64,000 bases of DNA from Rhodospirillales bacterium (GTDB taxonomy: Bacteria; Pseudomonadota; Alphaproteobacteria; ATCC43930; CGMCC-115725). Shown piece after piece: positions 16,803 to 39,692 of the stretch. The stretch covers positions 1 to 64,000 of the forward strand of contig JAQGIC010000008.1 of assembly GCA_028288725.1 (NCBI GenBank), read 5' to 3'. Position numbers and translations under genes: made by a program. The notes beneath the pieces are model-generated. The model did not search any database and had not been told where the DNA came from. It saw nothing but the letters and a program-made list of their open reading frames with translations. Position 1 is the stretch's first letter. Each line of letters begins with the position of its first letter.

Positions 16803-17894
16803 TTACTTCGTCTGGTAAGGATACTGCGCCGCCTTGATGAATTGGCCGTAGAACCGGTCGAGATCGACGGCCTGGACGATCGTGACCTTCTGCTCACCCT
16901 GATGCGGCGTGATCGCATCCGGCCAGACATGGACTTGGCCGTAGTGCATGCCATGCTCCAGATCGACATCCATATTGGCCTCGATCGACCGGGTAATCAG
17001 GCTGCGGTCGATCGCGACCGCAGCCGTCATCTCGTCCCAGAGCGGCAGGTTGACCGCGTATTTCGCCAGGAACTCGGTCACCGGTGTCTTGACCGATGCC
17101 ATGCGGGCGATCAATTCCGGCGTCATCATGGTCTGGTTGGTCACGTCGCCCAGCACCGTGATCCTGGCCCAGGGCGCGGTCAGCACGATATGGGCGGCCT
17201 CCGGGTCGAACAGGATATTGAAGTCGGAATTGATGTCGGCGTCGCCGGAGACCTGCAGGATATTGGCACCGAGGAAAGCGCCCATGAACACCAGTTCCTT
17301 GGCCAGGCCGGCGAACTGCGGATCGAGCCGGATCGCCAGTGCCAGGTTGGTCAGCGGTCCGCTCGCCAGGATCGTCACCTGATGCGGATATTTATGGACC
17401 TGCTGGATCATGAAGTCGGCGGCCGTGCCGGGCGCGGGCTTGGTCGTGGGATTGCCCGACGGATTGTCCGGCACCAGGTAGGGATCGTCGGGATGGAAAT
17501 TCTCCCCCGGCTTCGGGTCGTTCCAGGCGCCCTTCCACGGCAGCTTGCCATAGGCCTGCTCCCAGGCGCGCATCCGCGCCACTGAATTGATCAGCGGAAA
17601 CACCGCGCCGTTGACGACCGGAATGTCGGTCCGGCGGGCGATTTCCAGGAAGCGCAGCAGGTGGGCGGTTTCCTCGTCGCGCCAGCCGTCGCCGCTGACC
17701 ACGGTGAAGCCCAGCACCTTGACCGAGGGATTGGCCAATAACATGACGACCGGCTGGATATCCGGGCCGCCGGGGCCGACGAAGTCATTGTCGTGGATCA
17801 CCAGCATCGGCGCGACCTCGGCCCGGGCCGGGGCCGCGACGACGCACAGGCCGGCCAGAGCCGCGAGGAGGAGGCCTTTGGGAGACGAGCGCAT
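16803..17894 (-). CDS. Secreted nucleoside hydrolase (IUNH family)
   Basis: Signal peptide MRSSPKGLLLAALAGLCVVAAPARA; DNDFVGPGGPD, LASGPLTNLALAIRLDP, ITVLGDVTNQ. Confidence 0.85.
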   Translation of the reverse strand: MRSSPKGLLLAALAGLCVVAAPARAEVAPMLVIHDNDFVGPGGPDIQPVVMLLANPSVKVLGFTVVSGDGWRDEETAHLLRFLEIARRTDIPVVNGAVFPLINSVARMRAWEQAYGKLPWKGAWNDPKPGENFHPDDPYLVPDNPSGNPTTKPAPGTAADFMIQQVHKYPHQVTILASGPLTNLALAIRLDPQFAGLAKELVFMGAFLGANILQVSGDADINSDFNILFDPEAAHIVLTAPWARITVLGDVTNQTMMTPELIARMASVKTPVTEFLAKYAVNLPLWDEMTAAVAIDRSLITRSIEANMDVDLEHGMHYGQVHVWPDAITPHQGEQKVTIVQAVDLDRFYGQFIKAAQYPYQTK

Positions 17895-17944
17895 GGAGCG
17901 AAATTCTTTTCGTGAGCGTGGGAAAAGTCGGGAAGCAGGCATGA

Positions 17945-18397
17945 TCATCCGCCCGGCCGGGCGTTCGGGTTGCCCCAGCCGGCCGGGCTCGGCACCTCGA
18001 CGTCGTCATCCTCGGTCCAGGCGGGCGCGGTGATGGCGTAGAATTCGAACGGCTCCACCCCGGTGACCCGCAGCGACCGGATCACCAGCGCCGGAACCCG
18101 GATGACCGATCCGGGTCCGACCGGAATGATGTCGGCGCCGCGCAGCACCTCGCCGTGGCCGTGGGCGACGATGAAGATTTCCTCGCCCAATTTGTCGTAG
18201 GTCGCCCGAGCGACGGTGCCGGGGGTGAACCGGAAGAGCGCGACGCTGACGCGTTCGCTATGGTCCGCCGCCGCGCGGCCGACCAGTTCCTGCAGCGAAA
18301 TTTCAGGGTGGGGTGCGGCGGCGGCACAGGCCCCGACGGCGACGAGCGCCCCGGCGGACAGCCCCGTCCGGATCCAGCCGTCGATCAAGCGATGCAT
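17945..18397 (-). CDS. Secreted cupin-domain protein
   Basis: ALFRFTPGTVARATYDKLGEEIFIVAHGHGEVLRG; N-terminal signal; same strand between TonB receptor and nucleoside hydrolase. Confidence 0.65.
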   Translation of the reverse strand: MHRLIDGWIRTGLSAGALVAVGACAAAAPHPEISLQELVGRAAADHSERVSVALFRFTPGTVARATYDKLGEEIFIVAHGHGEVLRGADIIPVGPGSVIRVPALVIRSLRVTGVEPFEFYAITAPAWTEDDDVEVPSPAGWGNPNARPGG

Positions 18398-18480
18398 GAT
18401 GGTTGGTCTCGGCTTCGACGGGTTCGAAAGGAGAAAGGGGCCGGGCGCCTGCCCGCCCCCCTGGTCTTCGTCGCTAAGAT

Positions 18481-20760
18481 CTAGAACTTGTACCGGAGCT
18501 CGAACCCGTAGGTGCGGGGATCGTTGACGAAACCGGTCAGGTTGTCGAAATCGATGGCGCCCGTCACCTTCACCTCGTCGAGGATGTTGTGGACATAGGC
18601 CGCGACTTCGAACCCGCGGGCATGGTCGATGTAGCCTACGCGCAAGCCACCCAGCAACAGGGCCTGGCCTTTGAATTCCTTCGCCTGATAGAGGAAGAAA
18701 TTCTCCGTGCCGCGATAGGACCAATCGGTCAGGCCATAGATCTCGTTGTCCTTGTTCAACGGGATGCTATAGCGCGCGGAGCCGCTCACCACCCAGCGGG
18801 GCGCGTTCGGCAGCGGATTGCCGTTGATCTTGACGTTCCCGGTCACGGGATCGATCGGGTTGGTGATGGTACAGGCGCCGCACTGGCTGACCTCCAGGCC
18901 GGAATCCTGGATCTGGGTGAAGTTGTAGCTGCCGCTGGCCGTCAACAGCAGAGCATCGATCGGCTTGTATTCGAATGCCGCCTCGAAGCCCTCGCCGATC
19001 GCGGTCTTGGCATTGATCAGATTGGTGCCCTGGGACGAACCGCCGACCGCGGCCAGCTGCAGGTTGTCGGTGTTCCAGGCATAGGCGGTCAGGTTGAGGT
19101 TGGCGCGATGATCCAGCAGGCTCGACTTGAGACCGATCTCGTAGGAGGTCGTGGTCTCCGCCTTGGCGACCGAAAGCGGCGCGGGTCCGGAAAAGCCGTC
19201 GAATTCCACGTTGCGGCCATCGAGCGCCGGCGCCAGATAGCCCGTGGCGACGCGGCCGTAGACGTTCATGTCGGGTGTCAGCGCGTAAGTCGCGCTCAGG
19301 TCGAACGTCGTGGAGGAATCATTGATGTGCAGCGTCGGAACCAACGGGTTAAAGCAGCCGACGAAGCAGCCGACGTTATAATCTTTGGAGTCCGTGCTGA
19401 AGCGCACGCCGGCACCGAGGGTCAGGTTCGACGTCAGCTTATAGGTCGCGGAATCGAATATGCCGAAGGACTCCGTGCCCTGCGTCTGATTCATCGAAAC
19501 CGCGGTCGAGCCGTCCGTGTTGTAGGAGTATGAATTGAGCCGCAGATATTCGTGAAAATAGAAGAAACCGCCTTGGTTGAAAAAGCGGCCGTCGCCATTG
19601 GTCGACAGCCGCAGTTCCTGGGTGATCTGATCGAGGCCGGGCACCGAGTCGCTGGTCTCATCGCTGAAGAAATTCGGGCCGGGGGTCAAAAAGGGCGAGC
19701 CGGCGGGCGCGGAGAAATTGCCGCCGTCGATGTCGCCGCGGCTGCGGATGCTGCCGTGTTCGTAGGCGCTGACCGAGGTCAGCGTGACCGGACCGAAGTT
19801 ATTGTTGACGGTGAGATGCGTGCCCCAGGTTCCGAGATTCTGGTAATTGTCGCCATCGAGATTGACCTGATCGACCTTGAAGCCCGGCACCAGGTTGTTG
19901 GTACCCTTCTGGATGATGTTGGCCCGGAACACGCGCGCGGTGCCGTCGAGCGAACGGCCGTCGACTTCGAGCAGGGCATCCAGCGTATCGCTCGGCTTGA
20001 ACAGCAGCTGCAGGCGGGCGGCCGTATCGGTATAGCCTTCCAAATTCTTGTTGTAGGCCGTGGTCGGATTGATGTTGTGGACCCAGTCGTCCCGGCGCTC
20101 TTCCAGGATCGAAACTCGGAAATCCAGCTTGTTCGGCACGATGGCGCCGCCGACGGCCGCGGTGAAATCGACCGTGTTATAATTGCCGTAGCTGAGATCG
20201 GCGAAGCCGCTGTATTCGTCGTTCGGCTTGACCGAATCGACCTTGACCACGCCGGCCGGGGTATTGCGGCCGAACAGCGTGCCCTGCGGGCCGCGTAGCA
20301 CTTCGACGTCCTGCACGTCGAACACGGGGAAGGCCTTGAGGATCGGATTTTCCACGACCACGTCGTCGTAGACGACCGAGACGGGCTGCTGGGCATTGTA
20401 GGTGAAGTCGGGATTGCCGAGACCCCGGATATAGAAGCGCGGATAGGTTCGGCCGAACGAGGATTCGATGTTCAGGCTGGGCACGCGCGCCGCCAGGAAG
20501 CGGATGTCGTCGCCGCTCGAGCTCAGCGCATCCAGCGTCTGGCCGCTGAGCGACGTCACCGCCAGCGGCACGTCTTTTTCATATTCCGGCTTATGTTCCG
20601 CCGTGACGACGATCTGTTCGAGCGCCCCACTGGACGCCGCCGCGTCCTGCGCCAGCGCCGGTTGCGCCATTCCCGCCGTCAAGGCCATCGTCGAGACGCC
20701 GCAGGTGCTCAACAATGTCGCCCATCGGCCCGTTGCCGGACCGTGCCTGAAACCCCTCAT
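18481..20760 (-). CDS. TonB-dependent receptor (TBDR1)
   Basis: LEQIVVTAEHK TonB box, plug VEVLRGPQGTLFGRNTPAGVV, C-terminal YGFELRYKF; ATG 20760 preferred over the TTG at 20766. Confidence 0.9.
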   Translation of the reverse strand: MRGFRHGPATGRWATLLSTCGVSTMALTAGMAQPALAQDAAASSGALEQIVVTAEHKPEYEKDVPLAVTSLSGQTLDALSSSGDDIRFLAARVPSLNIESSFGRTYPRFYIRGLGNPDFTYNAQQPVSVVYDDVVVENPILKAFPVFDVQDVEVLRGPQGTLFGRNTPAGVVKVDSVKPNDEYSGFADLSYGNYNTVDFTAAVGGAIVPNKLDFRVSILEERRDDWVHNINPTTAYNKNLEGYTDTAARLQLLFKPSDTLDALLEVDGRSLDGTARVFRANIIQKGTNNLVPGFKVDQVNLDGDNYQNLGTWGTHLTVNNNFGPVTLTSVSAYEHGSIRSRGDIDGGNFSAPAGSPFLTPGPNFFSDETSDSVPGLDQITQELRLSTNGDGRFFNQGGFFYFHEYLRLNSYSYNTDGSTAVSMNQTQGTESFGIFDSATYKLTSNLTLGAGVRFSTDSKDYNVGCFVGCFNPLVPTLHINDSSTTFDLSATYALTPDMNVYGRVATGYLAPALDGRNVEFDGFSGPAPLSVAKAETTTSYEIGLKSSLLDHRANLNLTAYAWNTDNLQLAAVGGSSQGTNLINAKTAIGEGFEAAFEYKPIDALLLTASGSYNFTQIQDSGLEVSQCGACTITNPIDPVTGNVKINGNPLPNAPRWVVSGSARYSIPLNKDNEIYGLTDWSYRGTENFFLYQAKEFKGQALLLGGLRVGYIDHARGFEVAAYVHNILDEVKVTGAIDFDNLTGFVNDPRTYGFELRYKF

Positions 20761-20806
20761 CCTCAATCCCCCGAATTAGCTTGCTAGACAGGCAGCGCCG
20801 GCTCCG

Positions 20807-20853
20807 TCGATCTCTTTGGATCGAACGGGACCGGTGCCGCGTAGAATTCAGAA
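20807..20853 (-). promoter_or_regulatory. Conserved leader element of TBDR1 (CGATC-N6-GATCG hairpin plus GAATTC block)
   Basis: Aligns with 23858-23904 upstream of TBDR2. Confidence 0.5.
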
Positions 20854-20930
20854 AACCCCCAACAGGACGCCTCGTGCATTTCGCGACTTACTATTCGCGA
20901 CGCTCGATCGACAAACCTTCACAAATCGGT

Positions 20931-20946
20931 AGCAGGAACCATGCCA
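20931..20946 (-). promoter_or_regulatory. Sigma-54 type promoter TGGCATGGTTCCTGCT for TBDR1
   Basis: -24 GG and -12 GC with the required 10-nt spacing; near-identical to site at 24008-24023. Confidence 0.7.
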
Positions 20947-21184
20947 GCGGGCGACCCAAAAGGCCCGGCATCCGCATCGTGCGGATCGCCTGTATCCGCG
21001 AGATCACAGTCCCGCGACCGACCCGCTCGAAAACCGGTCAACCGTTTGAAAACGCGACCTGTTCGAAGGCTTCGCGCGTGCGCATATCGGCAACGGTCTC
21101 GGATAATTTCTACATGGATTCGAAGCGTGGCGGCCCGACGGCCAAATCGACGGCAGGCTGCATCCCGATCTGCCCGAATTCTAT

Positions 21185-21205
21185 CTGTTGCTGGAACGGC
21201 AACAG
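21185..21205. promoter_or_regulatory. Palindrome CTGTTGC-N7-GCAACAG, putative enhancer-binding site
   Basis: Same palindrome and same distance to the sigma-54 site as at TBDR2. Confidence 0.55.
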
Positions 21206-21287: not shown

Positions 21288-23735
21288 TTAGAACTTGACC
21301 TTCATGGTGAAATTGACGCTCGCCGGCGGGAGGACGGTGAGGAAGTCATTGCCGTAGAAGGGGTTGTCGTTCACCAGATTGCGCTGATTGGTGATGTTGT
21401 TGCCCGCCAGCTTGAATTCGTACCGGCCGACATCCCAATAGACCGCGGCGTTGAGCGTGTACTGCCACGGGATTTCCGGCGAAACGTAGTGACCGCCGTT
21501 GGCGACGAGGTAGGCCGGCACAAAGCCGGGGAAGCCGGCCTGCGTGGCGGCCACGTCGATCGTACCCGAGGTTGTGGTCGGGATCGGACCGGTGACCTGC
21601 ATGCTGGTCTGGATGCCCACGCCATTGTCGAAGCGATAATTGCCGAGGAAGTTGAACACGTGCTCCGGAATGCCCGGATCCTTGAACTGCTGGTTCGGGG
21701 CCCACACGATCGACGCGGCGGCGCCATCGACATTCATCCCCGCCTGGGCCGGGAAGTTGTAGAAGCCCGCCGGGGTCTCGAGGATGGTCCGGGCGAAGGA
21801 GTAGCTGGCGGTCAGGAAGAGATGCGGCTGCGGCTGATAGTTGAGCTCCGCTTCGACGCCCCGAATATGCGCGAAGGAGGAGCTGGCGCCGCCGGGCCCG
21901 GTCGGAACCGACCGGGATTGGCTGAAGGCGGCCGTCGACAGGAACAGCGTGTTTTCGATCAGCGAGAATTTCAGGCCGCCCTCATAGAGCCGCGTGGTCT
22001 GCTGCAGCTGCGACTTGTCGGCGGTCCCGAAGGTGGCAATGCCGCCGTCATTGGTCGTGGAGTTCGTGTACTGGGCATAATTATAGGTGAAGTAGGCCGT
22101 GCCCCAGGGTGCGAACTGATAGACCGGGCTGATATTGCCGTTGCCGAGGGCGTACCAAGCGGAGGTGTGATGGTCCGGGATGCCGTTCAGGACGGCACCG
22201 CCGAGCGGGTCGCGCTCGTCGAGCTGCACGACGTCGCCGCGCAGGCCGTACAACAGGCTCACTTCCGGCGTGAACTGGATGCGGTGCTCCAGGAACAAGC
22301 CGAAGTCGTAGGTGTCGGAGTCGACCGTGTTGTTGGGCAAGGCCGCGTTGCGGCCGGCGGCGCCATACACGAGGCGGCCGAAGGCGTCCGTATATTTCAC
22401 GGTGCCGAACTCGAGACCGCCGCCCTGCAAGGCGGCCGGGAATACGAAGGTGCTGGGCGCGCCGCTCAGGTCGAAGATGCTGATCGGCTCGTTGACGAAG
22501 TTCTGGATGTTCTGGACATGGGCGTTGCGGAACGTGACGCCGGCGTCGATCTGGCTGTTCGGCTTGAAGCTGTCGCTGAACGGCGTTGAGAATTTATATT
22601 GGAAGTCGGTCTTATTCTCGATCGTGTAGCTGCCCTTGGTCGAATCCGAGAAATAGTCCTGAGTCTGGTTGTCACGATTCATCAGGTTGAAGAACGTGTT
22701 GTTGCTGACGCTCGTCGCGTCGTTGAACTGATAATTCTGCTGGACCTGGACATTGAAGCGTAGCGAGTGCGCCTGGGTGTCCGGCGGCTCGTCGATATTG
22801 ACCTGGCGACCGAGCTTGACCGGATTGCCGAGTACGAACTGAGTGCCGAAGCCCGCGACGGCCACCGGCGCCGGACTGCCGGTGAGATACTCGCCGTTGT
22901 TGATAAGCTGCTGGTTGACGCGGTTGATGCCGTCGTTTTCCTTGTAGTCCGCGTACGCGATCTCGCTGTTGACGTTGATCGTGTACTTGTCGTTCACGTT
23001 GATCGTTGCGGCGCCATAGACGGCCTGCTCGCGGAAATACATGCCGGTGTAATAGCTGCCGCTATCCTCGCCGGTATAGCTGAAGCGATAGGCGACCCTG
23101 TCGTTGACCGGCCCGCCGAAATCCAGGCTCCAGCGGCGCTTGTCGTTGCTGTCGAACTCCGCCGTCGCCGCGCCCTTGAACTCGTCGAAATAGGGCTGCT
23201 TCGTCGAGATATTGATCGAACCGCCGACGCCGGCGCCGGGACCGGCCTGGACGCTGGCCGGCCCTTTGATGATGTCCATCGTGTCGATGCTGTTGTAGCT
23301 CAAGGGCGCGCCATAGCCGTTCAGCGTGAAGCTGTCGCGCATGCCATTGAAGAAGACGTCGGCGAACTGGCCGCGGATGCGCGGAATGTTCGGCGTGCCG
23401 AATGACGCGTCGGTGTAGGCGCTCGAGGTCAGATAGGAGAGTTCCCTCGGATCCTGGATATTGAGCGCGTCGAGCTGGGCGTGGGTCAGCACCGTGTTGT
23501 TGCGCGGCGTCTCCATCACGTTGAGATCGAGGCCATAGGCCGTGCTCGAACTGAGCGAGGTCGGCAGAACGCTCAAATCCTTCGAAACACCAACGACGGT
23601 GATCTGCTCGGCGCCGCCTTGTTGCGTCGCGCCGGCCGGAGGTGTCGTCCCCGTGACGGCCTGTGCCGAGGCTTGTTCGATCGACGCGGCGCCGGTCAGC
23701 ACCGTCATCATCATCAGATTGATTTTATATCCCAT
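21288..23735 (-). CDS. TonB-dependent receptor (TBDR2, siderophore-receptor-like architecture)
   Basis: Plug NIPRIRGQFADVFFNGMRDSFT...DIIKGPASVQAGPGAGVGGSINISTKQP; C-terminal VNFTMKVKF. Confidence 0.9.
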   Translation of the reverse strand: MGYKINLMMMTVLTGAASIEQASAQAVTGTTPPAGATQQGGAEQITVVGVSKDLSVLPTSLSSSTAYGLDLNVMETPRNNTVLTHAQLDALNIQDPRELSYLTSSAYTDASFGTPNIPRIRGQFADVFFNGMRDSFTLNGYGAPLSYNSIDTMDIIKGPASVQAGPGAGVGGSINISTKQPYFDEFKGAATAEFDSNDKRRWSLDFGGPVNDRVAYRFSYTGEDSGSYYTGMYFREQAVYGAATINVNDKYTINVNSEIAYADYKENDGINRVNQQLINNGEYLTGSPAPVAVAGFGTQFVLGNPVKLGRQVNIDEPPDTQAHSLRFNVQVQQNYQFNDATSVSNNTFFNLMNRDNQTQDYFSDSTKGSYTIENKTDFQYKFSTPFSDSFKPNSQIDAGVTFRNAHVQNIQNFVNEPISIFDLSGAPSTFVFPAALQGGGLEFGTVKYTDAFGRLVYGAAGRNAALPNNTVDSDTYDFGLFLEHRIQFTPEVSLLYGLRGDVVQLDERDPLGGAVLNGIPDHHTSAWYALGNGNISPVYQFAPWGTAYFTYNYAQYTNSTTNDGGIATFGTADKSQLQQTTRLYEGGLKFSLIENTLFLSTAAFSQSRSVPTGPGGASSSFAHIRGVEAELNYQPQPHLFLTASYSFARTILETPAGFYNFPAQAGMNVDGAAASIVWAPNQQFKDPGIPEHVFNFLGNYRFDNGVGIQTSMQVTGPIPTTTSGTIDVAATQAGFPGFVPAYLVANGGHYVSPEIPWQYTLNAAVYWDVGRYEFKLAGNNITNQRNLVNDNPFYGNDFLTVLPPASVNFTMKVKF

Positions 23736-23904: not shown

Positions 23905-24007
23905 AATCCCATTCAGCCCATTCTGAACTTTTATTTTTTGCGGCTGACGCCTCGCCCGCGCCGGTCCAGATCCGAGACGGGCGAGCGGAAAACTTTCACA
24001 AATCGGT

Positions 24008-24023
24008 AGCAGGAACCGTGCCA
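24008..24023 (-). promoter_or_regulatory. Sigma-54 type promoter TGGCACGGTTCCTGCT for TBDR2
   Basis: Matches TGGCACG-N4-TTGCW with one mismatch. Confidence 0.75.
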
Positions 24024-24227: not shown

Positions 24228-24281
24228 GGCAGGTTGCGCCTGGATCTGCCCGAAGGCTGCCTGTTGCCGATCCGGCAACAG
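24228..24281 (-). promoter_or_regulatory. Enhancer-like module: CTGTTGC-N7-GCAACAG palindrome plus GCAGATCC-N4-GCAACCTGCC
   Basis: Same order, orientation and spacing as the ABC-importer copy (39547-39600). Confidence 0.6.
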
Positions 24282-24297: not shown

Positions 24298-25437
24298 CTA
24301 TCCAAGCCGGGACGGAATGGCGTCGCCGATCAACTGGATGGCGCGGTCGATGTCGGCCTCGCCGGTAAACCGCCCGAGGCCGATCCGCAGCGTGCTCTGC
24401 GCCGCGGCGGCATCGAGCCCGATCGCGGTCAGCACCGAAGAGGGCAACCCGCTCGCAGCATTGCAGGCCGCACCGCTGGAAAGCGCCAGATCCGGCAGAT
24501 CCTCCATCAACGCCGTCGCGTCGATGCCGGGAAAGCGGAGGCTGAGCAGGCCCGCCACGCTGTGCGCCGGATCGCCGTTCCGGCGGATATCGGGCAGGCG
24601 TCGGCGTAGCCCCTGCCACAGACGGTCGGTCAGGGCGGCGAGCCGGACCTGTTCAGCCGTCCGCGCCGCCCCCGCAAGCGCCGCGGCCTGTCCGAAGCCG
24701 ACGCAGAGCGGCGTCGGCAGCGTGCCCGGCCGCACGCCCCGCTCCTGCCCGCCGCCCTGCAGCAGCGGCACCGGATCGCCCGCGCGCAGATAGAGCGCGC
24801 CGATCCCCGGCGGGCCATAGAGCTTGTGTGCGCTCAGGCTCATGAGATCGATCCCGAGCGCATCCACATCGAGGGCCAGGCGGTCGGCCGCCTGGGCCGC
24901 GTCGCTGTGCAACGGGATGCCGCGCGCCCGGCACAGCGCACCGATCGCACCCAGGGGCTGGATCGTGCCGATCTCGTTGTTCGCCGCCATGACCGAAACC
25001 AGGATCGTGTCAGGCCGCAGCGCGTGGGCCACACGCTCCGGATCGACCAGACCGGCCGCATCGACCGGCAGGACGGTGATATCGAACCCGTCCCGCGCCA
25101 GCGCCCGCAGCGGTTCGAGCACGGACGCATGCTCGCTCGCCACGGTGACGATATGCCGGCCCCGCGCCTGCCGGGCGCGCGCCATGCCGTGCAGGGCCAG
25201 ATTGTTGGCCTCGGTCGCCCCCGAGGTGAAGAGGATCTGGGCCGGCCGCGCCCCGATCAGGGCCGCGATCTGCGACCGGGCCTGCTCGATCGCCGCCGCG
25301 GCCGCCCGGCCCGCGGCATGCTGACGGTTATGCGGATTGCCGGCCTTGGCCGAGAAAAACGGCAGCATCGCCTCGATCACACGCGGATCGCACGGCGTGG
25401 TCGCCGGGTAATCCAGGTAGATCGCGGGCGCCGCCAT
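24298..25437 (-). CDS. NifS/IscS-like cysteine desulfurase, probably for XDH molybdenum-cofactor sulfuration
   Basis: YLDYPATTPCDPRV, SGATEANNLAL, DLMSLSAHKLYGPPGIGALYLR; last gene of the xdh-type operon. Confidence 0.85.
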   Translation of the reverse strand: MAAPAIYLDYPATTPCDPRVIEAMLPFFSAKAGNPHNRQHAAGRAAAAAIEQARSQIAALIGARPAQILFTSGATEANNLALHGMARARQARGRHIVTVASEHASVLEPLRALARDGFDITVLPVDAAGLVDPERVAHALRPDTILVSVMAANNEIGTIQPLGAIGALCRARGIPLHSDAAQAADRLALDVDALGIDLMSLSAHKLYGPPGIGALYLRAGDPVPLLQGGGQERGVRPGTLPTPLCVGFGQAAALAGAARTAEQVRLAALTDRLWQGLRRRLPDIRRNGDPAHSVAGLLSLRFPGIDATALMEDLPDLALSSGAACNAASGLPSSVLTAIGLDAAAAQSTLRIGLGRFTGEADIDRAIQLIGDAIPSRLG

Positions 25438-25439: not shown

Positions 25440-25910
25440 TCAGTAATGGACCTTGTCCATCGTCTCTTCCCAGGTGGTGAAGGCGGCGATCGCCTCCTCG
25501 TGCAGCAACTGATCAATGGGGATGCTGCGCTGGTCGAGCGGGAGCGGGATTTCGTCATAGAGAAACGCATCGTCGAAGCCGACCCGGGCCGCGTCCGTCC
25601 GGCCGTTGCCGTAATGGATCCGATCGAGCCTGGCCCAATAGATCGCGGCCAGACACATCGGGCAGGGCTCGCAGCTGGTGTAGATCTCGCAGCCGGCCAG
25701 GCTGAAATCATGCAGCGCCGCGCACGCGTTTCGGATCGCGACGATCTCGGCATGGGCGGTGGGGTCATGCGACGCGGTCACCCGGTTGGCACCCTCGGCG
25801 ATGATGCGCCCGTCCTTGACGATGACCGCGCCGAACGGACCACCGGCTCCGGATTGCGCCTGCTCGACCGATAGGGCGATGGCCCGGCGCATGAAAATTT
25901 CGGCACTCAC
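25440..25910 (-). CDS. guaD: Guanine deaminase (CDA-fold nucleoside deaminase)
   Basis: HAEIVAIRNAC and SCEPCPMCLAAIYWARLDRIHYG zinc motifs; terminal KVHY; purine operon context. Confidence 0.82.
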   Translation of the reverse strand: MSAEIFMRRAIALSVEQAQSGAGGPFGAVIVKDGRIIAEGANRVTASHDPTAHAEIVAIRNACAALHDFSLAGCEIYTSCEPCPMCLAAIYWARLDRIHYGNGRTDAARVGFDDAFLYDEIPLPLDQRSIPIDQLLHEEAIAAFTTWEETMDKVHY

Positions 25911-26731
25911 GAGAATATTCCCCCCTTCGACGCCGCCGGGGCGTCGGTTTCGATCGGTTTGACCCGGACGGACTGGTCGATCTGCAGAATTTGCGCCGCG
26001 ACCGCGATCGCGATTTCGGCGGGATGCTTGCCGCCGGCACCGGCGATGCCGATCGGGCAGACCAGCCGCCGGATCGCGTCCGGCCCATGGCCGCGCAGAC
26101 CCAGCCGCTTGACGAAGCGGGCCCGTTTGGTCAGCGAGCCGATCAGCCCGACCGCGGCGAAATCGACCCGGCGCAGCGCCGCGTCGACCAGATCCAGGTC
26201 GAGCTGGTGACTGTGGGTCATGACCAGCACCTGGCAGCCGCCCGGCAACGTGTCGATCTCATGCACCGGCAAACCCGAGACCCGGACCTCGACATTGGAT
26301 GGGACCGTCGCCGGGAATTCGTCGGATCGGGGATCGATCCAGATCACCCGGGCCGGCAGGGTGCCCAGCACATGGGCCAGCGCGCGGCCGACATGGCCGG
26401 CGCCGAACAGCGCGATTTCCAGGCCCGGCGGCAGGATCGGTTCGAACAGCAGGCTGGCCGCCCCGCCGCAGCATTGGCCCAGCGCCGGCCCGAGCGGAAA
26501 CTCCCGCAGGGTCGGGCCGGCAGCGGGATCCGCCAGCAACGCGCGCGCGATCTCCAGCGCGCGGAACTCCAGATGGCCGCCGCCGATCGTGCCGTGGAGC
26601 CGGTCCAGGGTGACGACCATCTTGCAACCGGCGTCGCGCGGGGTCGATCCGGTCGCCGTCACGACGGTGACCAGCACGGCCGCCTCGCGCCGGGCCTTGA
26701 GGCGGGCGAGCGCTTCGATCCAGTCGCTCAT
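25907..26731 (-). CDS. xdhC: Xanthine dehydrogenase accessory protein XdhC
   Basis: VTATGSTPRDAGCKMVV, GTIGGGHLEFRAL, GAGHVGRAL, GLIGSLTKRARF. Confidence 0.93.
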   Translation of the reverse strand: MSDWIEALARLKARREAAVLVTVVTATGSTPRDAGCKMVVTLDRLHGTIGGGHLEFRALEIARALLADPAAGPTLREFPLGPALGQCCGGAASLLFEPILPPGLEIALFGAGHVGRALAHVLGTLPARVIWIDPRSDEFPATVPSNVEVRVSGLPVHEIDTLPGGCQVLVMTHSHQLDLDLVDAALRRVDFAAVGLIGSLTKRARFVKRLGLRGHGPDAIRRLVCPIGIAGAGGKHPAEIAIAVAAQILQIDQSVRVKPIETDAPAASKGGIFS

Positions 26732-29025
26732 CGATTGGCCTCGATCGCCAGCAGCACCCGCTCCGGCGTCGCCGGTGCGTCGAACCGGACCGGTCCGGCG
26801 GCGGCCGCGACCGCATCCTTCAGGGCGTGGAACACCGAAATGCCGAGCATCAGCGGTGGCTCGCCGACCGCCTTGGAGCGATAGATCGCGTCCTCGCGAT
26901 TGTCGCCCCGATAGAGCGCCACGCGGAAATCCCGCGGCACGTCGGACGCGGTCGGGATCTTGTAGGTCGAGGGGGCATGGGTCGTCAGCCGCCCGGCCGC
27001 GTCCCAGGCCAGCTCCTCGGTCGTGAGCCAGCCCATGCCCTGGACGAAGCCGCCTTCGACCTGGCCCAGATCGATCGCCGGGTTCAGCGAGCGGCCGCAA
27101 TCATGCAGGATATCGACCCGCAGTATCTTGGTTTCGCCGGTCAGCACATCGATCGCGACCTCGCTGACCGAGGCGCCATAGGCGAAATAGAAAAACGGCC
27201 GGCCCTGGTGGGTCGCCTCGTTCCAATCGAGCCGCGGCGTGGTGTAGAAGCCGGTCGCCGACAGCTGGATGCGCGCGAAATAGGCCGCCTTGACCAGATC
27301 GGGGAACGCGATCACCTGGCCGCCGCCGCTGACCTGCCCGTCGCGGAAGGTGATCGCATCGGCCGGCACGCCGAACCGGGCCGCGGCCAGGTCCGCCAGC
27401 CGCTCGCGGATCGTCCGCGCCGCCGCCTGGGCCGCCTTGCCGTTGAGATCGGCGCCGGACGAGGCCGCGGTCGGCGAGGTATTGGGCACCTTCGCCGTGC
27501 TGGTCGCCGTAAGCTTGACCCGATCCAGCGCCACGCCCAGTTCCTCGGCCACGACCTGGGCGACCTTGACGAACAGGCCCTGGCCCATCTCGGTCCCGCC
27601 ATGATTCAGCTGGATGCTGCCGTCGGTATAGACATGGACCAGCGCACCGGCCTGGTTCAGATGCTTCGCCGTAAACGAGATGCCGAACTTGACCGGCGTC
27701 AGCGCCAGGCCTTTCTTCAGCCAGGGGCTGGTCCGGTTGAATTCATCGACCGCGGCCCGCCGGGCGGCATAATCGGAACTCGCCTCCAGTTCGGCGACCA
27801 ACGCCGGGATGATGTTGTCCTCGACCGTCATGCCATAGGGCGTGACGTTGCGCTCGGTCGTCCCGTAGAAATTGGCCTTGCGCACCTCGAGCGGATCCAG
27901 CCCCAGATCGCGCGCGATCTCGTCCATCACATATTCGATCGCCATCATGCCCTGGGGTCCGCCGAAGCCGCGGAACGCGGTGTTCGACACCGTATGGGTC
28001 TTGCAGCGGTGCGAGACGATCGTGACGTTTTGCAGGAAGTAGCAATTGTCGGCATGGAACATGGCGCGGTCGTTGATCGAGGCCGACAGGTCCGGCGACA
28101 TGCCGCAGCGCGAGGCCAACATGAATTCCACGCCCGCGATCCGGCCGTCCGCGCCGAAACCCACGTCGTAATCGATCAGGAAATCGTGCCGCTTGCCGGT
28201 CAGGATCATGTCGTCGTCGCGGTCGAGGCGGAGCTTGACCGGCCGGCCGGTCCGCCGCGCCAGCAGCGCCGCGACGCAGGCGACGATGGCCGCCTGGGTC
28301 TCCTTGCCGCCGAAGCCTCCCCCCATGCGCCGGACCTCGGTCACGACCGCATGGTCGGGCAATCCCAGCACCTTGGCGACCAGGTGCTGCACCTCGGTCG
28401 GGTGCTGGGTCGAGCTATGGATCAGCATGTCGCCATCCTCGCCCGGCACGGCCATGGCGACCTGGCCCTCCAGGTAGAAATGATCCTGGCCGCCGACGCC
28501 GAAGCGCCCCTTCAGGCGACGGGATGCCCCGGCCAGCGCCGCCGCCGCATCGCCGCGCCGCAGGATCCTGGTCGGCAGGATATAGCTTTCGTCGGCCAGC
28601 GCCTGCTCGATCGTCAGCACCGCCGGCAGATCCTGATACTCGACCCGGGCCAGCCGGGCCGCCCGCCGCGCCGCGCCGACGCAGTCGGCTGCGACGGCGA
28701 AGATCGACTGGCCGTGATATTCGACCAGCCCGTCGGCGAACACCGGATCGCCCGGCAGCACCGGCCCGATATCGTTGCTGGCGGTCAGATCCCGCGCCGC
28801 CAGCACCGCGACCACGCCCGGCGCCGCCGCGACCGCCGCCAGATCGAGCGACAGGATGCGGGCATGCGCGCGGCTGCTCCAGCCGATCGCGGCATGGAGC
28901 AGATCGCGCGGCTCGGGGATATCGTCGACATAGAGCGCCGCCCCGCGCACATGCTTGTCGGCACTGTCATGGGCGATCGCGCGATGCACGGTTTCGGGGA
29001 TTGCCGGCTCCGGCAGGGCGTTCAT
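26728..29025 (-). CDS. xdhB: Xanthine dehydrogenase molybdopterin-binding subunit
   Basis: HVRGAALYVDDIPEP, RMGGGFGGKETQA, AFRGFGGPQGM; internal ATG at 29025. Confidence 0.95.
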   Translation of the reverse strand: MNALPEPAIPETVHRAIAHDSADKHVRGAALYVDDIPEPRDLLHAAIGWSSRAHARILSLDLAAVAAAPGVVAVLAARDLTASNDIGPVLPGDPVFADGLVEYHGQSIFAVAADCVGAARRAARLARVEYQDLPAVLTIEQALADESYILPTRILRRGDAAAALAGASRRLKGRFGVGGQDHFYLEGQVAMAVPGEDGDMLIHSSTQHPTEVQHLVAKVLGLPDHAVVTEVRRMGGGFGGKETQAAIVACVAALLARRTGRPVKLRLDRDDDMILTGKRHDFLIDYDVGFGADGRIAGVEFMLASRCGMSPDLSASINDRAMFHADNCYFLQNVTIVSHRCKTHTVSNTAFRGFGGPQGMMAIEYVMDEIARDLGLDPLEVRKANFYGTTERNVTPYGMTVEDNIIPALVAELEASSDYAARRAAVDEFNRTSPWLKKGLALTPVKFGISFTAKHLNQAGALVHVYTDGSIQLNHGGTEMGQGLFVKVAQVVAEELGVALDRVKLTATSTAKVPNTSPTAASSGADLNGKAAQAAARTIRERLADLAAARFGVPADAITFRDGQVSGGGQVIAFPDLVKAAYFARIQLSATGFYTTPRLDWNEATHQGRPFFYFAYGASVSEVAIDVLTGETKILRVDILHDCGRSLNPAIDLGQVEGGFVQGMGWLTTEELAWDAAGRLTTHAPSTYKIPTASDVPRDFRVALYRGDNREDAIYRSKAVGEPPLMLGISVFHALKDAVAAAAGPVRFDAPATPERVLLAIEANR

Positions 29026-30473
29026 GGTTGCGCCTCGGCCAGGGCCAGCACACCGACCGGACCCGCCCCGCTCGTCTCGATCTGGAACTTGCGGACCAGG
29101 TTGGCGGCGACGCGCGCGCGATAGTCCGCACTGGCCCGCATGTCCGACAGCGGTGCGAAATCCTGGGTCAGCAGCGGCAGCGCCGCCAGGACCGCAGCCT
29201 GCGTCCAGGGCTGGCCGATCAACGCCTGCTCGCAGGCCCGCGCGCGCGCCGGAATCCCGGCCATGCCGCCGAACGCCAGCCGGAGGTCGACAACCCGGTC
29301 GGCGCGGATCGTCACCGCGAAGCCGGCGCACACGGCCGAGATATCCTGGTCGAAGCGCTTGGCGATCTTGTAGGTGCGGAACCGTGTGTCGGCGGCGGCC
29401 ATCGGCACCCGGATGCGCGCCACGAACTCGCCCGGCGCGAGCGCGGTCTTGCGATAGGCCAGGAAGTAGTCTTCCAGCGGCAGCGTGCGCTCGACCGGCC
29501 CCCGGCGCAGCACGAGGCTGGCGCCCAATGCGATGAGCGCCGGCAGGCTGTCCCCGATCGGCGAGCCATTGGCGATATTGCCGCCGATCGTACCGGCATT
29601 GCGGATCTGGACGGAGCCCAGGCGGCGCAGCAGCCCGTCGATCTCGGGATGGTATTTTGCCAGCACCGGCATGGCGTCGGTGTAGGTGACGCCGGCGCCG
29701 ATCTCGATCCGATCGGTCCCGACGGCCAGGTCGGCCAGACCGGCGACCCGGCCCAGATAGATCACTGTCGGCAGCCGGCGCTGCTGCTTGGTCACCCACA
29801 GGCCGACATCGGTGCCGCCGGCGAGCAGGACCGCATCCGGATGGGCCAGCACCAGGTGGGCCAACTCGTCGAGGCCGGTCGGCGCGAGGAACCGGCGGCC
29901 GTTTTGCTCGATCGCCAGCATTTCGGTCGGCCGGATCGCCCGGAGCTGTTCCGCGGTCGCGACCCGCCGGCTCTCGCTGCGGTCGCTCGCGGCGCAGGCC
30001 CGCTCGGCCGCGGCCACGATCGGGCGATAACCGGTGCAGCGACAGAGATTGCCGGCGAGCGCCTGCTCGATCCCGGACCGGGTCGGCGCATCGCCCTCGC
30101 GCCACACCGCGTAGAGCGACATGACGAAGCCGGGGGTGCAGAAGCCGCATTGCGACCCATGGCACTCGACCAGGGCCTGCTGGACCGGATGGGCCGGGGC
30201 CTCCGGCTTGGCCAGACTTTCGACCGTGACCAGTTCCTTGCCGTCGATCGCGCCCAGGAACAGGATGCAGGCATTGACGGCGCGATGGCGCACCGCCCCG
30301 TCGACCAGCTCGCCCAGCGCCACGGTGCAGGCGCCGCAATCGCCCTCGGCGCAGCCCTCCTTCGTGCCGCAGCGCCCCTCGGTCTCGCGCAGATATTCCA
30401 GCACGGTCCGGGTCGGGTCGAACCTTTCGACCGTCCGGACCTCGCCATCGATGACGAAGCGAATGCGGTCCAT
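29022..30473 (-). CDS. xdhA: Xanthine dehydrogenase small subunit (2Fe-2S/FAD)
   Basis: LRETEGRCGTKEGCAEGDCGACTVALGEL, CGFCTPGFVMSLYA, LCRCTGYRPI. Confidence 0.95.
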   Translation of the reverse strand: MDRIRFVIDGEVRTVERFDPTRTVLEYLRETEGRCGTKEGCAEGDCGACTVALGELVDGAVRHRAVNACILFLGAIDGKELVTVESLAKPEAPAHPVQQALVECHGSQCGFCTPGFVMSLYAVWREGDAPTRSGIEQALAGNLCRCTGYRPIVAAAERACAASDRSESRRVATAEQLRAIRPTEMLAIEQNGRRFLAPTGLDELAHLVLAHPDAVLLAGGTDVGLWVTKQQRRLPTVIYLGRVAGLADLAVGTDRIEIGAGVTYTDAMPVLAKYHPEIDGLLRRLGSVQIRNAGTIGGNIANGSPIGDSLPALIALGASLVLRRGPVERTLPLEDYFLAYRKTALAPGEFVARIRVPMAAADTRFRTYKIAKRFDQDISAVCAGFAVTIRADRVVDLRLAFGGMAGIPARARACEQALIGQPWTQAAVLAALPLLTQDFAPLSDMRASADYRARVAANLVRKFQIETSGAGPVGVLALAEAQP

Positions 30474-30820
30474 CAGCTGCCCCGGTAGGTCGTGTAGCCG
30501 TAGCGCGCCAGGATCAGCGGCACGTGATAATTCTGCGTCGGATCGCCGACGCGGAAGCGGATCGGGATCTGGTCGAAGAACAGATCGGCCGCCGGCACGC
30601 CGGTGGTCTGCAGATAGGCGCCGGCCTCGAACCGGATTTCGTAGAGCCCGGGCTGGAGCGCCTCGCCGGACAGCAGCGGGCCCGCGCCACGGCCGTCCGG
30701 TCCGGTCTTGCCGGCCGCGAGCGGCTCACCGTCCCCGACCCGGTACAGCGCATAGGCCAGGCCCTCGGCCGGCAGGCCCAGGCTGGTATCGAGCACATGG
30801 ATCGACAGACGGCCGCTCAT
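30473..30820 (-). CDS. uraH: 5-hydroxyisourate hydrolase
   Basis: SIHVLDTSLGLPAEGL ... NYHVPLILARYGYTTYRGS transthyretin-like signature. Confidence 0.95.
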   Translation of the reverse strand: MSGRLSIHVLDTSLGLPAEGLAYALYRVGDGEPLAAGKTGPDGRGAGPLLSGEALQPGLYEIRFEAGAYLQTTGVPAADLFFDQIPIRFRVGDPTQNYHVPLILARYGYTTYRGS

Positions 30821-31314
30821 GATGCCAATGCCTCCAGCCGGAACCGGGCGATCCTGGCGACCTCGGCCAAGGCCGTGGCCAGTTCGGTCGCCCGGTCGTG
30901 CCCCGCGCGCGTCTCCAGCGCGTCGAGGATCGCGCGCCGGTCGCGCTGGGCCTTGACCGCGATGATGAAGGGAAAGCCGAACCGCGCGCGATAGATCTCG
31001 TTCGCCCGGTCGAACCGCGCGATCTCGTCCGCGTCGAGCCGATCCAATCCGAGGCTGGCCTGTTCGCCGGCCGAGGCCTGGGTGAGACCGCCCGCGCGCG
31101 CAAGCTTGCCGGCCAGTTCCGGATGGGCCTGCAACAGCGCCAATTGCCGGTCGGGACCCGCCGCCATCACGACCGCGACCATGGCCGCGTGCAGCCGGTC
31201 GAGCGTGCCGAACGGCCGAGCGTCCGCGACCGCTTCTGCAACCCAGGGCGAATGTTCGAAGATGCCGCCGAGCGTGGCGACGAAATCCTCAGGCGATAGA
31301 AGATCGAGCTTCAT
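30817..31314 (-). CDS. uraD: OHCU decarboxylase
   Basis: FVATLGGIFEHSPWVAEAV, AHPELAGKLA, FGFPFIIAVK. Confidence 0.93.
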   Translation of the reverse strand: MKLDLLSPEDFVATLGGIFEHSPWVAEAVADARPFGTLDRLHAAMVAVVMAAGPDRQLALLQAHPELAGKLARAGGLTQASAGEQASLGLDRLDADEIARFDRANEIYRARFGFPFIIAVKAQRDRRAILDALETRAGHDRATELATALAEVARIARFRLEALAS

Positions 31315-32249
31315 CGGACCGCCCTCGCGCACGGATGCTCGGCGATCCAGTGCCGGGCGATATCGACGCGCCGGCAGACCCAGACATCCTGGTGCGCCCG
31401 GACATGGTGCAGGAAGCGGCGCAGACCCTGGGCCCGACCCGGCCGGCCGATCAGCCGGCAATGCAACCCGACCGACATCATCCGGCCGCCCTCGGCATAA
31501 AGCGCGTCGAACGCGTCCCGGGCGTAGATGAAAAAATCGTCGCCCTGGTTGAAGCCCTGGGCCGTGCCGAATTTCATGTCGTTGACGTCGAGCGTATAGG
31601 GCACGACCAGATGCGGCCTGCCGGCCTCGGTCACCCAATAGGGCAGGTCGTCGTTATAGGCGTCGGCATCATAGAGAAAGCCGCCATGCTCGGCGACCAG
31701 CCGGCGGGTATTGGGGCTGAGCCGGCCGGTGTACCAGCCCTGGGGCGCCGCACCGGTCAGGCGAGTCAGCACCTCCACAGCGCGGCGGATCTGTTCGCGC
31801 TCCTCGTCCTCCGGCATGTGCTGATGATCGATCCAGCGCCAGCCATGGCTGGCGATCTCGTGGCCCGCGGCCAGGATCGCGGCGCAAGCATCCGGATGGC
31901 GCTCCAGCGCCATGGCGACCGCGAACACGGTCACCGGCATGTCGAACTCCTTGAACAGCCGCATCAGCCGCCAGAAGCCGGCGCGGCTGCCGTATTCATA
32001 GATCGATTCGACCTGCAGGTTGCGGGCTCCCTGGATCGCCGGCGCGCCGACGACCTCCTGCAGATAGGTCTCGGCATGGGCGTCGCCATGCAGAATCGAT
32101 GCTTCGCCGCCCTCCTCGTAATTCATCACGATCTGCACAGCCAGCCGCGCGCCGTCCGGCCAGCGCGGATCCGGCGGATGGGCGCCATAGCCGATCAGGT
32201 CGCGTGGATAGTCGCCGCTCATGGGGTCGCGTGCCGCATAAAGTCCCAT
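31311..32249 (-). CDS. puuE: Allantoinase PuuE (polysaccharide deacetylase fold); start may be 32222
   Basis: DYPRDLIGYGAHPPDPRWPDGARLAVQIVMNYEEGGE, ASHGWRWIDHQHM. Confidence 0.93.
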   Translation of the reverse strand: MGLYAARDPMSGDYPRDLIGYGAHPPDPRWPDGARLAVQIVMNYEEGGEASILHGDAHAETYLQEVVGAPAIQGARNLQVESIYEYGSRAGFWRLMRLFKEFDMPVTVFAVAMALERHPDACAAILAAGHEIASHGWRWIDHQHMPEDEEREQIRRAVEVLTRLTGAAPQGWYTGRLSPNTRRLVAEHGGFLYDADAYNDDLPYWVTEAGRPHLVVPYTLDVNDMKFGTAQGFNQGDDFFIYARDAFDALYAEGGRMMSVGLHCRLIGRPGRAQGLRRFLHHVRAHQDVWVCRRVDIARHWIAEHPCARAVR

Positions 32250-32947: not shown

Positions 32948-33882
32948 CACCCTTCCGCGACAAGCTCGCCCGCGCGCTCTATGGCCCGGCGCTCTATTAT
33001 TTCGCCGCCGTGTGCGAGAGCCTGTCGATCCGCGCCGCCGCACGCCGGCTCAACATTGCGTCCTCCGCCGTCAATCGGCAGATCCTGCAGTTGGAGGAAA
33101 CCATCGGCGGGCCGCTGTTCGAGCGGCAGGGGCGGACGCTGCGGCTGTTGCCGATGGGCGAGATCCTGGCGCGCCACGCCCGCATGACGCTCGGCGATCT
33201 GGACGCGACCGCGGCCGACATGGACGCGGTGCAGGGCCTGCGCCGGGGGCTGGTGCGGGTCGCCTGCGTCGAGAGCATCGCCAGCGACCTGCTGCCGGCG
33301 ATCGTCGCCGAATTCGCCCGGCGCTTTCCACTGATCCATGTCGCCGTCACGGTCGAGAGCTCCAGCGCCGTCACCGGCCTGGTCGCGCGCGGCGAGGTCG
33401 AGATCGGCCTGACCTTCAACCCGCCGAAGCAGACGCAGCTGAGCGTGGCACTGGCGCGCGATCTGCCGATCGGCGCGGTCGTGGCGCGCGACCATCCGCT
33501 GGCCGGGCGGGCGGGCGTGACCGTGGCGGACTGCCTGGATTATCCGCTGGTGCTGCCGACCAAGGGCATGTCGATCCGCGATGCACTGGATGCCGCCTTC
33601 GCCGCGACCGGCCTGGTGCCGCGCAGCTTCGTCGAGGCCAATCTGCTGCGCTTCATGGCGACGCTGGCGCTGCAGGGCCGGTTCGTCGCGTTCCAGACCC
33701 GATTGGGCATCGCCCGGCAATTGGCCGACGGCAGCCTGGTCTTCGTCCCGCTCGCCGATGCCGGCCTGCCGGTCGATCGCCTGGCCGTGGTGACGCGCAC
33801 CGACGCGACGCTCAGGCTGGCGCCGGCGATCTTTTTCGACGTCAGCCGGCAGGTGCTGGCCGAGATGCTGCCGCTGGATTAG
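32941..33882 (+). CDS. LysR-family transcriptional regulator (GTG start)
   Basis: SIRAAARRLNIASSAVNRQILQLEETIGGPLFERQGR HTH. Confidence 0.9.
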   Translation: MVAPFRDKLARALYGPALYYFAAVCESLSIRAAARRLNIASSAVNRQILQLEETIGGPLFERQGRTLRLLPMGEILARHARMTLGDLDATAADMDAVQGLRRGLVRVACVESIASDLLPAIVAEFARRFPLIHVAVTVESSSAVTGLVARGEVEIGLTFNPPKQTQLSVALARDLPIGAVVARDHPLAGRAGVTVADCLDYPLVLPTKGMSIRDALDAAFAATGLVPRSFVEANLLRFMATLALQGRFVAFQTRLGIARQLADGSLVFVPLADAGLPVDRLAVVTRTDATLRLAPAIFFDVSRQVLAEMLPLD

Positions 33883-35597: not shown

Positions 35598-37084
35598 CGG
35601 AACGCCGTTTCCGAGAAGCTGCGCAGCTTGCGGCTATGCAGTCGCTCGAGGCCGCCGTCGCGCAGCATCTCCATGGTCTGAACGCCGATCTTCAGGTGCT
35701 GGTCGACCCGCTCGCGATAGAACCGGTCGGCCATGCCGGGCAGTTTGAGGTTGCCGTGCATCGGCTTGTCCGAAATGCACAGCAAGGTGCCGTAGGGCAC
35801 GCGGAAGCGATAGCCGTTGGCGGCGATGGTGGCGGATTCCATGTCGAGCGCGATGGCGCGGGACAGGTTGAAGCGGGCGACCAGTTCCTTCTGGTCCTTC
35901 AGCTCCCAGTTCCGGTCGTCGGTGGTCGCGACCGTGCCGGTCTGCATCAGGGCCTTCAGGCCGTAGCCGCTGACGCCGGCGACCTTGGCGACGGTCGCCT
36001 CCAGCGCTTGCTGCACTTCGGCCAACGCCGGCAGCGGGACCCAGGTCGGCAGCGCGTCGTCCAGCACATGATCGTCGCGCACATAGGCATGGGCCAGCAC
36101 ATAGTCGCCCAGCTTCTGCGAACCGCGCAATCCCGCGCAATGGCCGAGCATCAGCCAGGCATGGGGCCTCAAGACGGCGACATGGTCGGTGATGGTCTTC
36201 GCGTTCGACGGGCCGATGCCGATATTGATCAGCGTGATGCCGGCGCCGTCGGCGCGCTTCAGGTGATAGGCCGGCATCTGCGGCAGGCGTGGCGGCTTGG
36301 CCCCGCTGGCGGCCGCCGCAGGGTCGAGCGCCCGGCTGGGCGTCAACACGTTGCCGGGCTCGACAAACGCGACATAGCCGTGCTCCTGGCCGTCCTGCAT
36401 CATGGCCTGGCCGAAGCGGACGAACTCGTCGACATAGAACTGATAATTGGTGAACAGCACGAATTGCTGGAAATGCTCCGGCCCGGTCGCGGTGTAGTGC
36501 TTCAGGCGCTGCAGCGACAGATCGACCCGGGCGGCGGTGAACAGGGCGAGCGGCTGGCGATTGGCGGTCGGCAGGAAATAGGTCCCGTTCGGCACCGCAT
36601 CGTCGACATAGGTCAATTCGGGCAGATCGAAGAAGTCACCGACCAGATCCAGCCGGTCCAAATCGAGATTGGCCTCCGGATGCATGTTTTCGCCGAGCGC
36701 GAAATGGATCGGGATCGGCCGATTGGACAGGCCGACCTCGAGCGAGACCTTGTGGTTGTTCAGCAGCAACTCGAACTGCGTCCGGTAATAGGCACCGAAC
36801 AGATCGGGCCGGGTCAGCGTCGCGCGATAGGTGCCGGGCGCCAGCACGAAACCGTAGGACAGGCGGCTGTCGAGCCGCGCGTGGGTCGTGGTCGAGATCT
36901 CGACATAGGGATAGAAGCCGCGCACCCGCCGGGGCAGATCGGTGCCGCGGACATATTCCTTGAACCGGGTCACCAGATAGGTGGTCTGCGCGTCGTAGAT
37001 CGCGCGCACGGCCGACAACGCCAGGGCGGCATCATCGAAACGGGTCGGAACCGGCCGCGGCTTGGACATGTCGATCAGCGACAT
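35594..37084 (-). CDS. amn: AMP nucleosidase
   Basis: RGFYPYVEISTTTHARLDSRLSYGFV, TRPDLFGAYYRTQFELLL; phosphorylase-type C-terminus. Confidence 0.92.
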   Translation of the reverse strand: MSLIDMSKPRPVPTRFDDAALALSAVRAIYDAQTTYLVTRFKEYVRGTDLPRRVRGFYPYVEISTTTHARLDSRLSYGFVLAPGTYRATLTRPDLFGAYYRTQFELLLNNHKVSLEVGLSNRPIPIHFALGENMHPEANLDLDRLDLVGDFFDLPELTYVDDAVPNGTYFLPTANRQPLALFTAARVDLSLQRLKHYTATGPEHFQQFVLFTNYQFYVDEFVRFGQAMMQDGQEHGYVAFVEPGNVLTPSRALDPAAAASGAKPPRLPQMPAYHLKRADGAGITLINIGIGPSNAKTITDHVAVLRPHAWLMLGHCAGLRGSQKLGDYVLAHAYVRDDHVLDDALPTWVPLPALAEVQQALEATVAKVAGVSGYGLKALMQTGTVATTDDRNWELKDQKELVARFNLSRAIALDMESATIAANGYRFRVPYGTLLCISDKPMHGNLKLPGMADRFYRERVDQHLKIGVQTMEMLRDGGLERLHSRKLRSFSETAFR

Positions 37085-39671: not shown

Positions 39672-39692
39672 GGAGATGCCACGATGCGAGCG

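Follow-up and report, generated by a model that had tools for sequence, protein, structure and literature searches.

Many alphaproteobacteria encode dozens of TonB-dependent transporters, most of them without an assigned cargo. The 64,000-nucleotide stretch of a Rhodospirillales bacterium analysed here (contig JAQGIC010000008.1, positions 1 to 64,000; hereafter the window) raises the question of what two such receptors, TBDR1 and TBDR2, might carry. On the minus strand, immediately downstream of a purine-catabolic cluster in the same orientation, come TBDR2, TBDR1, a small cupin and a secreted nucleoside hydrolase (NH), in that order. The initial annotation placed TBDR1, the cupin and NH in one sigma-54 unit and proposed that a nucleoside is taken up through the outer membrane, hydrolysed in the periplasm and imported, as nucleoside or base, by a BMP-type ATP-binding cassette (ABC) transporter. 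Its coordinates and gene calls for the three collinear minus-strand genes agreed with our open reading frames and family matches (Table 1). We consider it likely, with a probability of about 0.74, that the locus is a small sigma-54 regulon that scavenges purine nucleosides across both membranes.

A sigma-54-type -24/-12 site is present upstream of TBDR1 (20946-20930), and TBDR2 has its own; these two sites, TGGCATGGTTCCTGCTA and TGGCACGGTTCCTGCTA, are the sole ones of their kind in the 5.5-Mb genome at up to 2 mismatches. Within the window the exact -24/-12 core occurs in three places only, before TBDR1, TBDR2 and the ABC operon, where the consensus TGGCAYG-N4-YTGCW is matched at 12/14, 13/14 and 11/14 positions, respectively, with the 10-bp GG/GC core spacing. 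From these matches we infer that sigma-54 is used at these promoters. Alignment of the regions upstream of TBDR1 and TBDR2 revealed conserved islands amid diverged DNA: the palindrome CTGTTGC-N7-GCAACAG, located 257-258 bp upstream of the -24 site at both genes; the dyad GCAGATC-N5-GCARCCTGCC; a stretch made up of the -24/-12 site and the first bases to be transcribed; and, in the leader, a short repeat. The two dyads, putative operator halves 1 and 2, stand upstream of each site in a fixed order. When the window was scanned for these elements, a third copy of the whole module appeared at 39548-39671, on the opposite strand, before the BMP ABC operon. Genome-wide, perfect copies of the palindrome are found only at the TBDR1 and TBDR2 promoters, and operator half 2 has three exact matches, all before TBDR1, TBDR2 or the ABC operon. 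The congener (G001) has a single exact match to half 2, before TBDR1, and in it the palindrome and a sigma-54-type site (13/14 and 11/14 consensus positions) precede TBDR1 as well as the ABC operon; there were no exact matches in 59 further relatives, and a reversed control pattern gave 0 matches. Because the module is shared and rare in the genome, TBDR1, TBDR2, the secreted NH and the importer look like one small regulon. What is new here is this bipartite operator with a sigma-54 site, shared by TBDR1, TBDR2 and the BMP ABC operon.

The TBDR1 and TBDR2 promoters stand in tandem, 3 kb apart, and the modules could be alike only through promoter duplication followed by neutral drift, with a fortuitous match to sigma-54. 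We find this hardly credible: divergence between the regions has spared only the operator halves, the -24/-12 site and start region and the short leader repeat, and the same module stands 15 kb away in the opposite orientation and, in part, in the congener. Six clear enhancer-binding proteins are encoded in the genome, namely NtrC, NtrX, one in a flagellar locus, a PspF-like protein and two of response-regulator type on other contigs. NtrC was considered as the activator and set aside, as the half-sites are spaced TGC-N7-GCA here but TGC-N11-GCA in the NtrC dyad of enteric bacteria. A strong hairpin follows TBDR2 (21195-21287, minus strand; -50.5 kcal/mol, z -5.2), and one arm includes part of TBDR1 operator half 1, a possible overlap of terminator and operator.

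The pairing of TBDR1 with NH is conserved beyond the family and the class: the two genes are adjacent in five more genomes, in one as a remnant, and near-adjacent in a sixth. In the congener a purine cluster is followed by TBDR1 (84% identity), 80 bp and NH (77%). NH comes directly after TBDR1 in an Acetobacteraceae metagenome-assembled genome (L038; 63% for TBDR1, 68% for NH), in a genome of another class (G681, L085) and in G371 (L076), where an NCS2 permease and an adenine-deaminase-like gene come next. G363 (L082) retains a TBDR1 remnant (62%) beside NH, the pair being broken by an inserted gene. In G567, of another class, an alpha/beta hydrolase gene lies between TBDR1 and NH, and the next operon, in divergent orientation, encodes a BMP ABC transporter. 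The NH gene occurs in 6 of the 385 genomes sampled from the class, 5 of which also have a TBDR1-family receptor, and receptors of this family occur in 16. A tree of 35 receptors united the TBDR1 family in one clade (support 100/100), with a subclade (100/99) made up of the window's receptor and those of G001, G371, G054, G186 and G567; all six genomes have a secreted NH. In G054 and G186 (L044/L079) NH sits inside a cluster of xdh, urate oxidase and allantoinase genes, though the TBDR1 copies of the same genomes are not beside purine genes.

Some of these loci have features of their own. A very stable hairpin between TBDR1 and NH in the congener (L009:15958-16042; -42.9 kcal/mol, z -3.5) possibly allows differential expression of receptor and enzyme. 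The NH gene of G363 is split by the inserted gene (10082-12160), which is recombinase-like by its N-terminal sequence (L082:8224-12661). In G567 a second exported NH with a canonical DTDIGDDIDD follows the atypical one (L084:8417-9424), placing both types in one locus; a separate one-strand locus of that genome (L083:3475-10513) comprises a TonB-dependent receptor, an NCS2 permease, a ribokinase-like gene and NH, which suggests ribose use as well.

To measure purine context, we counted loci with any of 12 purine marker proteins (at least 100 bits) within about 9 kb of the receptor, comparing 16 TBDR1-family loci from outside the genus with 60 control TBDR loci from the window's genome, the congener and five comparison-set genomes. 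Markers lay near 7/16 TBDR1-family loci versus 2/60 controls (Fisher p=1.5e-4), and both control matches are apparent paralogues, one at 30% to PuuE and the other at 41% to a Mo-hydroxylase subunit. In three of the positive loci (G240, G265 and G162) adenosine deaminase genes flank the receptor, and one of these genes scored above the NCBIfam cut-off. A scan for NH among species-representative genomes yielded 14 loci. An unrelated receptor is followed by NH, an NCS2 permease and adenosine deaminase in Nitrospirillum, Azospirillum sp. B4 and Sphingomonas glacialis; in Novosphingobium the same block comes after a receptor of a third type and a gene of the M20 peptidase family. At most of its locations NH is associated with purine use, and repeatedly it is also associated with TonB receptors. 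In Rhizobium bangladeshense p4 (L173:1-7000) an NH homologue and a LysR gene lie beside nitrogen-starvation-type genes (MSMEG_0567/0572 families, Nit6803 nitrilase).

TBDR1 might instead carry another purine compound, such as a free base, urate, a nucleotide, a dinucleotide or a modified nucleoside, with NH acting on a later or side product. The subclade of the window's gene is always accompanied by a secreted NH in the genomes sampled, and the fact that the two genes are immediate neighbours in several lineages suggests that TBDR1 carries what NH acts on. These observations make the alternative unlikely in our view, even though the TBDR1-family loci L086, L087, L089, L090 and L095 have no NH but do have a gene for adenosine deaminase, AMP nucleosidase or allantoinase as a neighbour, and the active-site residues of NH are non-canonical.

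Both receptors scored above the cut-off for PF07715 and PF00593 (plug and barrel of TBDR1, E=4.5e-15 and 6.8e-32), and by eye a putative TonB box follows the signal peptide (EQIVVTA in TBDR1, EQITVVG in TBDR2). Their best characterised sequence relatives are siderophore or bacteriocin receptors, the enantio-pyochelin receptor being the nearest solved relative of TBDR2, and a cobalamin riboswitch with a cob operon lies 5 kb away; TBDR1 and TBDR2 could thus be siderophore, haem or cobalamin receptors placed beside the purine cluster by chance. We regard this as very improbable. Even in unrelated genomes TBDR1 is accompanied by NH or by purine genes, and the operator is common to the BMP importer. 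An iron link was rejected, as the window has no Fur-like box at 3 mismatches. A cobalamin link was rejected as well: the riboswitch (13272-13452, minus strand; 127 bits) stands before a CobW-CobN-CobO-type operon and belongs to it.

Purine substrates had been proposed for both receptors. For TBDR1 this is supported by its conserved NH pairing and purine context; for TBDR2 the promoter and position suggest such a role weakly. TBDR2 has no relatives in the class sample whose context could point to its cargo. It may be a second receptor, specific to this lineage, that was brought under the same promoter.

NH matched PF01156 with 189 bits. The signal peptide predicted in the initial annotation is classical (N-terminal MRSSPKGLLLAALAGLCVVAAPARA/E) when read from the internal ATG at 17894. 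An AlphaFold model (pLDDT 73.5) gave TMt values of 0.78-0.85 against solved nucleoside hydrolases. In common with the IU nucleoside hydrolases (PF01156), NH has the fold, the GPLTN and DPEAAH segments of the core, and the equivalents of Asn168 (N244) and Asp242 (D305), both of which are invariant in 15 relatives and were aligned to the solved enzymes. It differs from them in being exported, in having the DxDxxxDD calcium/ribose motif replaced, and in an invariant Trp at the position that His241 occupies in group I enzymes. Judged by its sequence, NH is best called an atypical, exported nucleoside hydrolase. A role like that of Trp260 in the IAG-NHs was considered for Trp304 and dropped, the profile alignment to those enzymes ending before that residue.

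TBDR1 and the cupin are separated by an 83-bp gap holding a GC-rich hairpin, the cupin and NH genes overlap by 4 bp, and we found no sigma-70-like or sigma-54-like start between the three genes; from this layout, co-transcription of TBDR1, cupin and NH is likely. The cupin matched PF07883 with E=5.3e-6 (26.5 bits against a cut-off of 27.2), its N-terminus is compatible with a lipobox (VGAC), and by eye the usual metal-binding histidines are missing. Neither the cupin nor TBDR2 is present in the corresponding locus of the congener. The cupin is dispensable in evolution; of the proposed three-gene unit, TBDR1 and NH hold together, but the cupin is not conserved with them.

The steps of the proposed route can be set out as follows. 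TBDR1 would take up purine nucleosides through the outer membrane with energy from TonB, as its context suggests, and the exported NH, given its signal peptide and fold, would cleave them in the periplasm to base and ribose. Bases or remaining nucleosides may then enter through the BMP/PnrA-like ABC importer, as its family and the shared operator suggest; elsewhere in the family, entry would be through an NCS2 permease instead. Adenine deaminase, Xdh, HIU hydrolase, OHCU decarboxylase and allantoinase, in their established roles, would break the bases down to ureides as a nitrogen source. The ABC operon encodes a Bmp substrate-binding protein, two permeases and a double ATPase, and its matches to NCBIfam B6-transporter models were below cut-off only. 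Overall, the route first proposed is supported by the conserved TBDR1-NH pairing, the enrichment of purine genes, the NH-NCS2-deaminase operons and the shared module.

Several observations weigh against this reading. The DxDxxxDD motif of NH is replaced by DNDFVGPGGPDIQ (DNDFLGPGQSNIQ in most relatives), the region reading DNDF-GPG---Q, and the protein has Asp at the Asn39 position and Trp at the His241 position, the latter invariant in 15 relatives; with the metal-site motif and these residues altered, its specificity, and even its activity, is unproven. A BMP importer that takes intact nucleosides would have a periplasmic NH as a competitor, and nucleosides are small enough for porins. Three of the seven marker-positive loci (G240, G265 and G162) are close relatives, and 9/16 TBDR1-family loci have no purine marker nearby, so the whole family need not be purine-specific. 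On Rhizobium and Devosia plasmids NH lies beside a LysR gene with no receptor nearby, and other NH copies of G371 likewise lack a nearby receptor. The cupin is in none of the other TBDR1-NH pairs whose gap could be read, neither the cupin nor TBDR2 is conserved even between members of the genus, and no TBDR2 homologue was found at 1e-80 in the 384 other genomes of the class. None of the six enhancer-binding proteins is beside the locus, and none has an evident purine link or a nearby copy of the module.

Table 1. Coordinates of the genes and putative regulatory elements of the locus in the window.
Feature	Position	Strand	Basis or remark
Secreted nucleoside hydrolase NH (IU_nuc_hydro)	16803..17948	-	PF01156 2.3e-55; likely start 17894
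Small cupin, predicted lipoprotein	17945..18397	-	PF07883 match below cut-off
TonB-dependent receptor TBDR1	18481..20760	-	PF07715 + PF00593; TonB-box-like EQIVVTA
Sigma-54-type -24/-12 site of TBDR1, TGGCATGGTTCCTGCTA	20930..20946	-	sequence pattern
Putative operator half 2 of TBDR1 (GCAGATC-N5-GCAGCCTGCC)	21152..21173	-	one of 3 genome copies
Putative operator half 1 of TBDR1 (palindrome CTGTTGC-N7-GCAACAG)	21185..21205	-	
TonB-dependent receptor TBDR2, siderophore-receptor-like, orphan	21288..23735	-	PF07715 + PF00593
Sigma-54-type -24/-12 site of TBDR2, TGGCACGGTTCCTGCTA	24007..24023	-	sequence pattern
Putative operator half 2 of TBDR2	24228..24249	-	
Putative operator half 1 of TBDR2	24261..24281	-	
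IscS/NifS-type cysteine desulfurase, end of xdh operon	24298..25437	-	PF00266 3.4e-76; NCBIfam IscS-type
CMP/guanine-deaminase-type deaminase	25440..25910	-	PF00383
XdhC (true start internal)	25907..27100	-	TIGR02964 285 bits, cut-off 162
Xanthine dehydrogenase molybdopterin subunit (start approximate)	26728..29025	-	PF02738/PF20256
Xanthine dehydrogenase FAD/2Fe-2S subunit	29022..30473	-	family profile match
Hydroxyisourate (HIU) hydrolase	30473..30820	-	TIGR02962 above cut-off
OHCU decarboxylase (true start internal)	30817..31638	-	PF09349
Allantoinase PuuE	31311..32249	-	TIGR03212 above cut-off
Adenine deaminase	33879..35597	-	TIGR01178 587 bits, cut-off 472
AMP nucleosidase	35594..37084	-	TIGR01717 633 bits, cut-off 365
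Putative operator half 1 of ABC operon, GTTGCCGAAACGGCAAC	39548..39564	+	
Putative operator half 2 of ABC operon	39578..39600	+	
Sigma-54-type site of ABC operon, TGGCACGCTTCCTGC	39657..39671	+	
ABC ATPase, duplicated (start 39684 or 39693)	39684..41225	+	PF00005 x2
ABC permease 1 (start approximate)	41222..42298	+	PF02653 2.1e-42
ABC permease 2	42295..43221	+	PF02653 3.1e-36
BMP/PnrA-like substrate-binding protein (start approximate)	43239..44315	+	PF02608 1.4e-52

An FAD-dependent oxidoreductase (38054-39463, minus strand) is divergent from the ABC operon, and a 56% homologue in G309 (L090:14665-16089) lies between OHCU decarboxylase and HIU hydrolase genes. Because of that position, and because no PF06181 urate oxidase turned up in those stretches of the window that were scanned, the oxidoreductase is a candidate flavin-dependent urate hydroxylase. 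The class V aminotransferase at 24298-25437 was first suspected to be a ureidoglycine-glyoxylate aminotransferase; NCBIfam places it among the IscS-type cysteine desulfurases.

More broadly, we lean, with some reserve, towards a distinct TBDR family for active purine-nucleoside uptake, joined with periplasmic hydrolysis by a catalytically re-shaped NH subfamily and with a BMP importer in one sigma-54 regulon, and towards active outer-membrane purine scavenging having evolved more than once, because unrelated receptors have been recruited to the same NH-permease-deaminase operon elsewhere. Purine nucleosides are a cargo that this receptor class was not known to serve. Their assignment to a receptor family, based on context, tested against controls and matched by a secreted enzyme and an importer, makes the cargo directly testable; if it is true, nitrogen-rich nucleosides join the substrates of active outer-membrane transport. 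We found no earlier description of a purine or nucleoside TonB-dependent transporter (TBDT) in a collection of 5.4 million open papers, subscription papers lying outside that search. In a 2024 review of TonB-dependent transport, nucleosides come up in connection with Tsx alone, and no purine or nucleoside TBDT is named (PMC11658791). Caulobacter, also an alphaproteobacterium, has 67 TBDTs and neither classical porins nor Tsx-type channels (PMC4659666), so that active uptake would make sense there even for small molecules.

Among known systems, Tsx of enterobacteria likewise admits nucleosides through the outer membrane, but it is a passive channel that does not depend on TonB and has no relation to TBDTs (PMC11658791). 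The ABC operon shares the PnrA-like Bmp domain, two BPD_transp_2 permeases and double ATPase of BMP/PnrA-type purine nucleoside importers; here, in contrast to those, a predicted operator is common to outer-membrane receptors and a secreted NH, and the ligand is read from context. A SusC/D locus of Bacteroides for ribose and nucleoside scavenging also combines a TonB-type receptor with a nucleoside-cleaving enzyme, and with a sugar kinase, but it is SusD-dependent, phylogenetically remote and aimed at ribose, and we liken it by description rather than by sequence. The carbohydrate-utilisation (CUT) loci of Xanthomonas and Caulobacter resemble the locus described here: next to the TBDT gene they have genes for a hydrolase of the periplasm, a transporter of the inner membrane and a catabolic pathway, with regulation of the substrate type; here, however, the predicted cargo is purine nucleosides, and control looks to be of the sigma-54/enhancer type.

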